Part shown: piece by piece, positions 3,763 through 51,985 of the stretch | How positions within the stretch are numbered: the first letter of the stretch is position 1 | Layout of the letters: every line of letters begins with the position of its first letter | Assembly: GCA_026708185.1 (NCBI GenBank) | Contig: JAPOVK010000034.1 | Location: 62,001-126,000 of the forward strand | Source of the DNA: Gammaproteobacteria bacterium | Lineage (GTDB): Bacteria; Pseudomonadota; Gammaproteobacteria; Pseudomonadales; Azotimanducaceae | Direction: 5' to 3' | DNA: 64,000 bases | The notes under the pieces: generated by a model | What the model was told of the DNA's origin: nothing | Database searches by the model: none | The model's input: only the letters and a program-made list of their open reading frames with translations | Program-made: the position numbers and the translations under genes

Positions 3763-5802
3763 CTAGTGCAACTCCACGCCCACGTAGACCTGTCGTGGCA
3801 TCCCGGGGAAGTAGCGGTAGCTGCCGAACGCGTAGTCGGCGCGGTCCGCGTAGGCCGTGTCGAGTACGTTCACCAATCGCGAAAACAGTCGGACCCGCCG
3901 CGACGCGGCCCACGATCCGCGCCAATTGAGCAGGGCGTGGCCGTCGTAGTGGGCCGTATTCGCAGCGTCGATGGCGTGTGATCCGACGTAGACCGCCTCG
4001 AACTCCGATAGGACGCTATCGGAAGCCCAACGCCAACGCGCGCTCGCCAGCCACCTCGGCGCCGTGTCGACGTCGTTGCCGTCCACGATCCGTTCGCCAC
4101 GTCCGGCGGCTCGCGTGAACGCGTACTGATGACGCGCGTAGCTCGCGACCAGATGCACCGCGTGGTGGGCTGCCGGCCGCCATCCAAAGTCGGCTTCGAT
4201 GCCCGTGGACCTGGTCTCGCCGTCGCTCACGTTGTAACCGCCAGCGTCGCGAAAGATCAGGTTGTCCGTCGTCTCCACGTAAACCGCCAGGTCGAGTTCG
4301 ACGTCGGGTGCGGCAGCGCGCAACCCGGCCTCCAGCGAACGCAGCATCTCGCTCTCCAAATCCGCGACGGCCTGGCCCCGCTGCAGGCGGTAGAGTTCAG
4401 TGGTTTGGGGCGGGCGGAAGCCGTGGCCGGCCACTGCATAAAGGACTCGTCCCGGTCGCGGCGTGAACTCGAGGCCGATTCGCCCGGCAAGGTTGGTGAA
4501 GGCGTCGTCTCGGTCCGCAGGCCGCGTGTATAGGCAACCGCCGAATCCGCAGGCGCTGCCGTCATCGCGCGTGTTGCCGACCAGATGCCGATTGTCGTAC
4601 TCGTAGCCGTTGCGCTCGAGACGCGCGCTGACCACCAGGTCCCAGGCCTCGGCCAAGTCGACGTCGGCGTCGTAGAACGCGGCGAGGGTGAGTCCGCTCA
4701 CCTCGTAGTCGTAGTGTGTCCCAGGCGGCCGGGTCGCGACCAGGAACGCCGATCCGGTCGTGGCACCCGCCTGGCGCTCCGACAGTGTCGCGGCGAAGCC
4801 CTCCAACACCGCCCCGGCCGTCCAACGCCAGGTGCCACGGCCGCGCAGGTGAAACTGTGCCCCGGCACTGGACTGGCCATTGCGTTCCAGGGGCTGGCCA
4901 GGGAGGAAGTGCTGGAGAAACGCCATCGAGGAGCGGCGCGCATAAGGCGTGATGGTCAATTCCCGATCGCTCGCCAACTGGCGGCGCCACGCGGTCGAGG
5001 CGCGCATCGACCACGCATCGCGATACGCCTCGGGGTTCGGGTTGCTGCGTCGGAGCGGTGAATCGTAGACCTCGAATCCGCGGACGTAGCCGCCGGTTTC
5101 CTGGTTGAGCAAGGTCGCTGCGGCGGCATTGGTGACCACCCACCCGCCGACCGTGCCCGAGGTGCCGGCGACGAGTTTGTGCTGCCCGAAACCGGTGTCG
5201 TCGCGGTAGCCGCCCGTGGAGGTCGTCAACGCGTCCAAACGCCAGTCGTCCCCGCCAGCCGTGGCCCGGGCCTGACTGTATTCGTACGGACCCACCTCGA
5301 TGCTGGCGCGCAAGCCGTCGACGGCCGTCGCCGTGACGGTGTTGATGGCGCCGTGCAACGCGTTGCCGCCGAACAGGGCGCTCGCCGGCCCGCGGACCAC
5401 CTCGATGGCGTTCGCGAGTTCGGTGTTCATCTCGAAGAGATTGTTGATGTTGCAGAACCCGGATGGACGGATGGGAACGCCGTTTTCGAGGAGCAGGAAG
5501 CCCCCGCACGCCCCGGGGCCTGCCAGCACGCCGGAACGAATGGCGGTCAGATGCTCCTGCCCCGAAGCGCGCGCAACCCACACGCCAGGAACACGAACCA
5601 GGATCTCGTTCGGATGGTTGGCCCGGGCGAGGTCGATGGCGACTTCGTCAACGGTCGATACGCTGGCGACGGCACCTTGCGCGGCCGCCACCGACGCTTG
5701 TGCTCGGACGATGACCTCCTCGATGCCCTCGGCTTCCTCGGCGCCCGTCGCCAAGCCGAAGAGGATGGCGGCCAAGCTCGCGGCAGGGCGCATCGCTGTC
5801 AT
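3763..5802 (-). CDS. TonB-dependent outer-membrane receptor
   Basis: 679 residues. A signal peptide (about residues 1-20, LAAILFGLATG) is followed by a TonB-box-like EEVIVRAQ, a plug domain containing ILVRVPGVWV, FLLLENGVPIRPSGFCN and AIEVVRGPASALFGGNALHGAINTV, and a 22-strand-type barrel ending in PRQVYVGVELH. It imports a large or scarce ligand energised by TonB. The start ATG overlaps the stop of the upstream esterase as ATGA (5799-5802), so translation is coupled. Its operon partners, a carboxylesterase and a DUF5916 outer-membrane protein, suggest an esterified organic ligand, not a siderophore, but this is inference. Confidence 0.9.
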   Translation of the reverse strand: MTAMRPAASLAAILFGLATGAEEAEGIEEVIVRAQASVAAAQGAVASVSTVDEVAIDLARANHPNEILVRVPGVWVARASGQEHLTAIRSGVLAGPGACGGFLLLENGVPIRPSGFCNINNLFEMNTELANAIEVVRGPASALFGGNALHGAINTVTATAVDGLRASIEVGPYEYSQARATAGGDDWRLDALTTSTGGYRDDTGFGQHKLVAGTSGTVGGWVVTNAAAATLLNQETGGYVRGFEVYDSPLRRSNPNPEAYRDAWSMRASTAWRRQLASDRELTITPYARRSSMAFLQHFLPGQPLERNGQSSAGAQFHLRGRGTWRWTAGAVLEGFAATLSERQAGATTGSAFLVATRPPGTHYDYEVSGLTLAAFYDADVDLAEAWDLVVSARLERNGYEYDNRHLVGNTRDDGSACGFGGCLYTRPADRDDAFTNLAGRIGLEFTPRPGRVLYAVAGHGFRPPQTTELYRLQRGQAVADLESEMLRSLEAGLRAAAPDVELDLAVYVETTDNLIFRDAGGYNVSDGETRSTGIEADFGWRPAAHHAVHLVASYARHQYAFTRAAGRGERIVDGNDVDTAPRWLASARWRWASDSVLSEFEAVYVGSHAIDAANTAHYDGHALLNWRGSWAASRRVRLFSRLVNVLDTAYADRADYAFGSYRYFPGMPRQVYVGVELH

Positions 5803-50163: not shown

Positions 50164-50544
50164 TTAGCGCTTCGGCACGCCGTACAGATAGCGCGTATTC
50201 ACCTCGGTCTCGTTGCCGTCGGGGTCGAGCATGAACAGCGCCCGGCCTTTGCCGCGCTCCCCCATCGGGCCGCGGGTGAAGATGTTCGCCTTGGCCGCTC
50301 GTTGGGCGACCTCGTCGAACACGGGCTCGGTCACCGTGAACGAGAAGTGCATCGGGCCACCGCCCCGGTGGCGTCCGCCGTGCCCCTTGACCTGCAACAC
50401 GACGTGGCTGCGCTCGCATTGCAGGTAGGCGCGTTCGTCGTTGCGCATGACCACGGGCAAGCCCACCACGCCTTCGTAGAAGTCGACCGCCCGGGCGAGG
50501 TCCTGCACGTCCAGGAAGATCTCCTCGATGCCGATGATGCTCAT
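50164..50544 (-). CDS. VOC-family (glyoxalase-fold) protein
   Basis: 126 residues from ATG 50544, with GAGGCA 5-6 nt upstream. Two beta-alpha-beta-beta-beta units of the vicinal-oxygen-chelate fold: IEEIFLDVQDLARAVDFYEGVVGLPVV and MHFSFTV, then RALFMLDPDGNETEVNTRY. Metal-binding positions could be supplied by the Glu/His residues of these strands. Members include glyoxalases, dioxygenases and resistance proteins; the exact role is not visible. It begins 7 nt after the end of the AhpD-like selenoprotein gene and is probably co-transcribed, which could suggest a redox or detoxification context. Confidence 0.85.
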   Translation of the reverse strand: MSIIGIEEIFLDVQDLARAVDFYEGVVGLPVVMRNDERAYLQCERSHVVLQVKGHGGRHRGGGPMHFSFTVTEPVFDEVAQRAAKANIFTRGPMGERGKGRALFMLDPDGNETEVNTRYLYGVPKR

Positions 50545-50551
50545 AGTTGCC

Positions 50552-51664
50552 TCATGCATTGTTGTCTGTCGTAGCGCGCGCTCTTCGTTGTCTGTCGTAG
50601 CGCGCGCTCTTCGCCACGTAATCGAAGGCGTCGATGCCCGTTTCGGCGCGCATCGACCCCGTGACCTTCTGAGTCGTCGGGTCGAGCGGGATGCCCGTCG
50701 CGTCGGCGACGCGGGTGATGCCGTTGAAGCCGGCGGCGACGGTCAGGGCGTCCACCATGGCCTGCTCGCCCATCGCTGCCGCGGCTTCGCCGCGGACGGT
50801 GACCAGTTCACCCCAACGGCTGCCGATGGCGGCCTCGGTGAGGCGGCGCAAGTGGTCGGCGTGGTCGACGCCCGGGTCGCTATCGGCGTCGTTGACGGCG
50901 TTCAGGTTGAAGTCCCGGTTCTCGCGCTGGCCGCTCGCCCGGAGCAGCATCGTGTGCGACGTTGTTCAGTAGAAGCACTGGTTGAGGGCGGATACCCGCG
51001 AGGCGATGAACTCGGCCTGGGGCTGCGAAACGCCAAGCGGGATGTCGCGCAGGGCGTAGTGGCCGCGGAACGCGGTGAAGAAGAGCGCCACGGCCGAGGG
51101 GACGCTGCCCATGGACCGGGCGATGTTCGGCGCACCCGGCAACCCGGTGACGGTGGCCGTGCGGTCGTCGACCCTGGTTAGCGGCACCCAAGCGCCATCG
51201 TCAACGACGTCCGGATCTGACTGGCCAGCCGCGGGGCCCGGTTCCGGTGTCGGCAGGTCCGGCAGCGTCAAGCCCAGCGCCGCATGCATGGTGTCCACGA
51301 TCACCGCCGCGTTGACCACGCTCACGGCTTCGATGTAGCGCTCGCGCGAGATGCCGCCCGCGAGCACGCCGTCGAAAACCGCGCGCGTGTAGCGGCCCGG
51401 ATCGGTGCGCAGGCGGTGGATCATGTCGATCAGCATCGGCGGCAGGTCGGAAACCGTGTCGTGCTCGCCATCCACCGCGAATGGCGACAGCGCCGCGAGG
51501 CGCCGCGCGCAAAGCTCGCACGCGGTTGCAGCACGGGCCTCCGCCACCATCTGAACACGCTCCGCACCGCTCCAGAAAGCGCCCGGTGCCCCAATCAGCC
51601 GCCAAGCCTCGGCGTGCCTCGCGATCACGTCGGGGCTGACCGGATAGCGCGTGTCTTCGTACAT
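50552..51664 (-). CDS. AhpD/carboxymuconolactone-decarboxylase-like probable selenoprotein (in-frame UGA = Sec233)
   Basis: 370 residues if TGA at 50966-50968 is read as selenocysteine. The frames on both sides are in the same phase. N-terminal half (1-232): CxxC in ATACELCARR (Cys49, Cys52), LIDMIHRLRTDPGRYTRAVFDGVLAGGIS and GAWVPLT. The active site is NQCFY-UGA-TTSHTMLLR, that is CxxUxxxH, in which AhpD relatives have CxxCxxxH (Cys130, Cys133, His137 in mycobacterial AhpD); the UGA replaces the peroxidatic Cys. Another 137 codons follow without a stop (VDALTVAAGFNGITRVADATGIPLD). A hairpin lies 17 nt after UGA. ATG 51664 has GGAG 5 nt upstream. Likely a thiol/selenol peroxidase or disulfide reductase. 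An alternative is a nonsense mutation. Confidence 0.8.
50930..50948 (-). promoter_or_regulatory. Candidate bacterial SECIS hairpin downstream of UGA
   Basis: On the minus strand, starting 18 nt after the UGA, GCTGCTC pairs with GAGCGGC over 7 bp (one G-U) around the 5-nt loop CGGGC. The apical loop begins 24 nt after UGA and has G at its second position, within the spacing (about 16-37 nt) and loop features of SelB-recognised bacterial SECIS elements. Structure judged by eye. Confidence 0.6.
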
Positions 51665-51762
51665 CGTGGCTCCCATCAGTCCGCCGACCTCGATTGGACC
51701 GGAACAGTGTACGGCCTGGCACTCCGGCGCAACGGCGACGAAAAAGTCAAAAAAGTTGTTGC

Positions 51763-51796: not shown

Positions 51797-51985
51797 ATGT
51801 ACGTCTGCCTATGCCAAGCCGTTAGGGACGCCGAAGTTCGCCAAGCCGTGGCGAGCGGCGTCGAGGATGTCGAGCAACTCGCCGAAGAACTCGGTGTCGG
51901 CACTGGCTGCGGCTCGTGCCGAGAATTCGCGCAGACGTTGATCGACGAATACGCAAGCCAGCCGGCACTCTACCACGCCGCATAA
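51797..51985 (+). CDS. bfd: Bacterioferritin-associated ferredoxin-like [2Fe-2S] protein
   Basis: 62 residues. MYVCLCQAV with Cys4 and Cys6 and GVGTGCGSCREF with Cys38 and Cys41 give the CxC...CxxC [2Fe-2S] pattern of Bfd, which reduces the ferric core of bacterioferritin for iron release. Length is that of Bfd (about 60). ATG 51797 is the natural start; no bacterioferritin gene is adjacent. It is divergent from the AhpD-like gene (132-bp gap) and followed after 27 nt by the epimerase gene. Confidence 0.9.
   Translation: MYVCLCQAVRDAEVRQAVASGVEDVEQLAEELGVGTGCGSCREFAQTLIDEYASQPALYHAA

Follow-up and report, generated by a model that had tools for sequence, protein, structure and literature searches.

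The minus-strand gene at 50552-51664 of the window (the whole 64,000-nucleotide stretch of contig JAPOVK010000034.1 that was analyzed) is a member of a selenoprotein family that has already been named and catalogued, NCBIfam NF041238. With high confidence, the joint explanation that fits best is an NF041238 selenoprotein in which UGA 233 would be read as selenocysteine (Sec) by means of a SECIS-like hairpin and which would carry out AhpD-like redox chemistry. Sec insertion at residue 233 is very likely, because the family match, the Sec genes of the genome, the conservation of the TGA and the hairpin, as judged by comparison, all point to it. The following features were recognized.

50552..51664, minus strand: AhpD-related selenoprotein gene (NF041238), 370 residues including the putative Sec233; from the sequence, its translation and the NF041238 match
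50966..50968, minus strand: in-frame TGA, putative selenocysteine 233 (CFYU); from the sequence and its conservation among relatives
50930..50948, minus strand: 7-bp hairpin with a CGGGC loop, resembling a bacterial SECIS (stem 50942-50948 / 50930-50936); from comparison across relatives
51206..51664, minus strand: six-helix N-terminal domain (residues 1-153); resembles AhpD-like folds weakly by structure, no Pfam family for the window copy
50555..51205, minus strand: C-terminal AhpD/CMD-like domain with Sec233 (putative) and His237; Pfam CMD at 24.7 bits (residues 151-370), PDB 6k40 by profile
51509..51520, minus strand: N-terminal CELC (Cys49, Cys52); from the translation and conservation in relatives
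51670..51674, minus strand: GGGAG, resembling a ribosome-binding site, 5 nt ahead of ATG 51664; spotted by eye
50561..50613, minus strand: tandem repeat of 26 bp, perfect, in the 3′-terminal part of the selenoprotein gene; from the sequence
50164..50559, minus strand: VOC/glyoxalase-superfamily gene that overlaps the stop codon of the selenoprotein gene; Pfam Glyoxalase at 39.1 bits, lineage-specific neighbor

The gene runs from ATG 51662-51664 to a terminal TGA at 50552-50554. A preliminary description had placed two minus-strand frames (51664-50969 and 50965-50552) in the same phase with the TGA as their sole separator, and these coordinates hold: 232 codons lie ahead of the inner TGA and 137 sense codons stay open beyond it, as had been reported. 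CFY-TGA-T occupies 50963-50977, and the junction C-F-Y-TGA-T-T-S-H, likewise confirmed, gives CxxUxxxH. In the list of open reading frames the gene was split into 50966-51676 and 50552-50950, the second piece being read from an inner ATG. An alternative ATG lies upstream in the selenoprotein frame at 51676; the start at 51664 was favored because of the GGGAG motif and because the equivalent Met is the earliest start codon of the frame in loci L040, L043, and L051. Divergent from the selenoprotein gene, an ORF tail on the plus strand at 51845-51985 (MYVCLCQAVRDAEVRQAV...) resembles, by eye, a bacterioferritin-associated ferredoxin; this 46-residue stretch gave no NCBIfam match at E ≤ 0.001.

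Against NF041238 (AhpD_rel_CFYUT) the joined 370-aa protein scored 404.3 bits, over a curated cut-off of 175 and along model positions 2-356 of 357, and it carries the CFYU-T motif with its in-frame UGA. The AhpD core domain model TIGR00778 was barely passed (27.9 bits, cut-off 27.8), AhpD proper (TIGR00777) reached 12 bits for a cut-off of 191.95, and TIGR01926 stayed at 29.6 bits, under its cut-off of 81.8. For Pfam CMD (PF02627, cut-off 23), residues 151-370 scored over the cut-off whereas the whole protein, at 22.8 bits, fell just under it. A 2026 review (PMC13188914), in the part available, lists NF041238 as a known selenoprotein family with the motif CxxU; since the model covers both domains and the family is listed there, the two-domain protein is the catalogued family, and the earlier suggestion that this form might be undescribed was rejected. 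In the same part the review identifies this family with "hypothetical protein 1" from the Sargasso Sea selenoproteome, for which it cites Zhang et al. 2005 (PMC1088965). The available text of that paper gives a CxxU motif, a predicted SECIS and a predicted redox role for hypothetical protein 1, and its Table 2 counts Cys homologues, seven in the Sargasso Sea data and five in complete genomes. A literature search for the family tag of NF041238 found no occurrence in the papers listed, and the literature, as far as its text was available, yielded no tested function for the named family.

Conservation of the UGA was assessed in two sets of loci, the counts of which are not independent because they derive partly from the same source genomes. 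A scan of 97 genomes (own genome included) gave 68 stretches over the NF041238 cut-off, 30 of which (L020-L049) were studied further. The named-genome set consisted of the best 80 of 319 confirmed loci, from MAGs mostly of Gammaproteobacteria/Pseudomonadales with some Deltaproteobacteria, Myxococcota, Binatia, and Alphaproteobacteria; one of the two search patterns used for it was able to match Cys codons only. Of the 68 stretches, 67 contained a single stop, always a TGA, and the remaining one covered only model positions 14-195. The TGA lay inside the CxxU motif in all 30 loci checked, and the codon 233 position was TGA in all 80 named-genome loci (best 80 of 319). Homologues with Cys at this position had been proposed as a check: the position was confirmed as TGA throughout, and no full-length Cys form occurred in the 68 stretches or in the best 80 of 319 loci. 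In a phylum-wide draw of 398 genomes, a match at E ≤ 1e-40 was obtained only in the own genome.

The N-terminal CxxC, correctly assigned earlier to Cys49 and Cys52, was kept in 30/30 loci of the genome scan and in 78/80 named-genome loci (best 80 of 319); it was not found in the scanned stretch of L095, nor in the truncated L109. Residues C49, C52, E218, C230, C/U233, and H237 were invariant in 54/54 aligned sequences, the invariance of the CxxC being partly one of choice because rows without it had been left out. From the 80 loci, L095, L109 (cut short), and L096 (which runs into the VOC frame) were removed before row set A3 was drawn up; of the 77 left, 53 entered A3 and A4. Row sets A1 and A2 do not include L046, a duplicate of the window. 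A second NF041238 member is encoded in the own genome (L136, G000:C31:235411-236385, plus strand); it is 45% identical and has kept CFYU-TTSH but lost the N-terminal CxxC. Five stretches over the NF041238 cut-off, with one TGA each, were observed in a genome of the same genus (G015), for which the listed contamination is 8%.

The presence of selA, selB, selD, and tRNA-Sec, named earlier as a check, was verified in the own genome (5.13 Mb, draft, 65 contigs). All were present and over cut-off: selB at 385 bits (cut-off 242), selA at 545 (268), selD at 250 (125), and tRNA-Sec at 68.8 (gathering cut-off 47). A 3.4-kb stretch of contig C3 contains selA, selB, and tRNA-Sec, all on the same strand. 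Among the 97 genomes, selB was matched at E ≤ 1e-70 in 41 of 44 with the NF041238 family versus 16 of 53 without it; this association is partly phylogenetic, since it is weaker inside the own taxonomic family (39/42 versus 13/19). Three genomes with the family (G006, G031, and G033; completeness 91-92%) gave no selB match at that threshold.

The hairpin follows the TGA at a spacing of 17 nt and has a G in its apical loop, as is expected of a bacterial SECIS, its position and covariation being taken from relatives. Folding of the 48 nt past the TGA in the window copy gave an energy z of 0.01, with 96 of 200 shuffles as good, so that the hairpin rests on comparison. Across 30 sequences, 82.9% of stem cells could pair, versus 27-48% when the stem was slid. 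In 500 shuffles of these sequences the number of cells paired was reached twice and the number of cells changed on both sides four times, and the other three covariation measures were reached by 45, 51, and 47 shuffles. The outer two of the seven stem pairs were open in 13/30 and 19/30 sequences. For codon and pair counts, 110 loci (including the best 80 of 319) were collapsed to 96 distinct sequences. Within these, the closing pair 27-33 was C-G in 90, U-A in 5, and U-G in 1; the Leu codon at the stem was CTC in 90 and CTT in 6; and codon 34-36 encoded Ser in 92, Gly in 3, and Asn in 1. All 92 Ser codons at this site were AGY; in the rest of the 80 genes (best 80 of 319), AGY accounts for 521 of 1519 Ser codons. 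Since the sequences are related, P values for this comparison and for the selB association come out too small. The codon and closing-pair counts together indicate that the stem constrains the choice among synonymous codons, which a SECIS would demand; conservation of the stem is also owed in part to protein coding. The hairpin first described from the single copy stands as a stem with paired C-G to U-A changes in relatives, and its energy in that copy is no better than that of shuffles.

An AlphaFold2 model built from 54 sequences had a pLDDT of 95.8 and a pTM of 0.93. By profile search, the C-terminal half matched 6k40 with E 2.2e-13 (profile positions 155-340). With Foldseek, AhpD-like chains headed the matches both for the whole model, with a best E of 0.032, and for residues 1-153 taken separately, where the best match had E 0.0084 (probability 1.00, TM 0.56, rmsd 8.9); E-values exceeded 0.001 for both, and all whole-model matches were distant. 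Pfam gave nothing convincing for the N-terminal domain, no family matching more than 2 of the 54 members, and those weakly. Because Foldseek ranks AhpD-like chains first for these residues, the N-terminal half may plausibly be another AhpD-like domain that has diverged and carries a CxxC itself, a reading for which the modeled structure offers weak evidence.

The proposed mechanism is as follows. The SECIS-like hairpin just past the UGA would recruit SelB and Sec-tRNA, so that UGA 233 would be decoded as selenocysteine. The product would be mostly helical, with a C-terminal AhpD-like domain containing Cys230-x-x-Sec233-x-x-x-His237 and an N-terminal domain with the CxxC. The Sec233 selenolate would attack an oxidized or electrophilic substrate, probably a hydroperoxide, and would then form a selenenylsulfide with Cys230, after which a dithiol would reduce Sec233 again; the N-terminal CxxC may serve as a dithiol relay. 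Such a relay is not universal, since the second paralogue of the own genome and L095 are without the N-terminal CxxC. By analogy, Sec233 most likely attacks and Cys230 resolves, with His237 and Glu218 as proton relay. These roles follow the AhpD mechanism, and Glu, CxxU, and His are spaced as in the AhpD active site. Hydroperoxides are a first guess for the substrate.

A selenoprotein with a reaction other than peroxide reduction, e.g., reductive dehalogenation as in the AhpD-fold debrominase Bmp8, or disulfide exchange, is somewhat unlikely. Bmp8 (6ohi/6ohj) ranked third among the whole-model structural matches (E 0.095) and matched the N-terminal domain very weakly by profile (E 0.12). However, AhpD-type proteins (6k40) ranked higher by both profile and structure, Bmp8 was absent from the nine profile matches of the protein, and every structural match was distant.

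That the TGA is a true stop, leaving either a pseudogene or a 232-aa protein followed by a separate small ORF, is very improbable. A 132-aa ORF does begin with the ATG at 50950, and the hairpin of the window copy is not unusually stable; against this, the TGA is shared by all 80 named-genome loci (best 80 of 319) and all 30 best loci of the genome scan, the conserved core CxxU..H straddles it, and in 5/5 relatives compared third-position differences exceeded those at first and second positions on both flanks. A sequencing or assembly error for TGC or TGT can be practically dismissed: apart from the window being part of a 65-contig draft assembly, no support was found for it, and many relatives' assemblies have TGA at the same codon, while codon constraint is seen at the downstream hairpin. 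Reading of the UGA as another residue, e.g., Trp, by a reassigned code or read-through would leave the frame open too, but is hardly credible given the presence of selA, selB, selD, and tRNA-Sec, the position of the codon where the AhpD motif has its second Cys, and the use of TGA as the gene's own final stop. The preliminary assignment, an AhpD-related selenoprotein whose Sec takes the place of the second Cys in CxxC, is supported by the NF041238 match, the Sec genes and the conservation of the UGA.

The downstream VOC gene had been named together with the two-domain form as a possibly undescribed arrangement; among the loci examined, the window and L096 are the sole places where it adjoins the selenoprotein gene. 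Using the window VOC protein in tblastn, a match was obtained in 1 of 30 loci of the genome scan, being the own copy (flanks mostly about 1.4 kb), and in 1 of 80 named-genome loci (best 80 of 319), being L096 (flank up to 4 kb, some ended by contig ends). Close homologues (67-98% identity) occur in 11 of 15 same-genus genomes; by coordinates, only that of G007 adjoins an NF041238 member. The distance is 73 kb in G004 and more than 150 kb in G015, G002 has the VOC homologue but no NF041238 member, and in the other seven genomes the two are on different contigs. Based on the two tblastn counts and the 10 non-adjoining homologues, the VOC gene was rejected as a conserved partner. Of five same-genus VOC loci inspected, L130 (G007; by coordinates the contig of L096) adjoins the selenoprotein, and three lie beside an ORF resembling an amidohydrolase by eye; no such ORF was found in the stretch of L134 that was read. 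Compared with Fos-type thiol transferase models, the VOC protein scored 49.8 bits at best versus 180 (NF000496), and for this assignment no matched family was over its own cut-off (best 25 of 35).

In L096, from a sister genome, the VOC sequence is 97.7% identical to that of the window. There, as assembled, the selenoprotein frame (4001-5473, plus strand) runs through the VOC domain for 491 codons, with the putative Sec codon as its sole stop. The corresponding junction in L096 lacks the 26-bp tandem repeat of the window. This possible AhpD(Sec)-VOC fusion, read from the sequence, is the one unusual point of the case; if the frame were translated as one chain, it would constitute a selenoprotein-VOC fusion for thiol-dependent detoxification. 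The broader idea of a lineage that joins a tandem CxxC and CxxU selenoprotein, with an internal dithiol-to-selenol relay, to a VOC metalloenzyme domain, as separate overlapping genes in the window and as one frame in L096, is doubtful. No selenoprotein-VOC fusion was found in the available text of the literature on NCBIfam selenoprotein curation, AhpD selenoprotein fusions, and glyoxalase-selenoprotein fusions, and neither "glyoxalase" nor "VOC" occurs in the searched part of PMC13188914.

In short, a well-supported member with a hairpin, Sec genes, and a confident model is added to a named selenoprotein family, and the picture of how selenoproteins work is unchanged. Because relatives mostly retain the UGA, the hairpin, and both redox motifs as a set, the presumed internal relay should be straightforward to test. 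Among known systems, the debrominase Bmp8 (PDB 6ohi) shares a distant AhpD-like fold, but its chain is shorter (195 residues) and the similarity is weak. AhpD-type peroxidase-related proteins (6k40, 2oyo, 2pfx, 3c1l; TIGR01926) align with the C-terminal half and share the CxxCxxxH frame of the motif, whereas the window protein would have Sec for the second Cys, has an extra N-terminal CxxC domain, and scores below the TIGR01926 cut-off. Hypothetical protein 1 (PMC1088965, available text) has the same CxxU motif and a predicted SECIS, the likeness being drawn from its description and the review instead of its sequence; Cys homologues were counted there, whereas no full-length Cys form was present among the loci examined here. 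The closest system is NF041238 itself, with nearly the full model matched, CFYU-T, the UGA at the same place, and the N-terminal CxxC; the window gene differs in details only, by the 26-bp tandem repeat at its 3′ end and the overlapping VOC gene.
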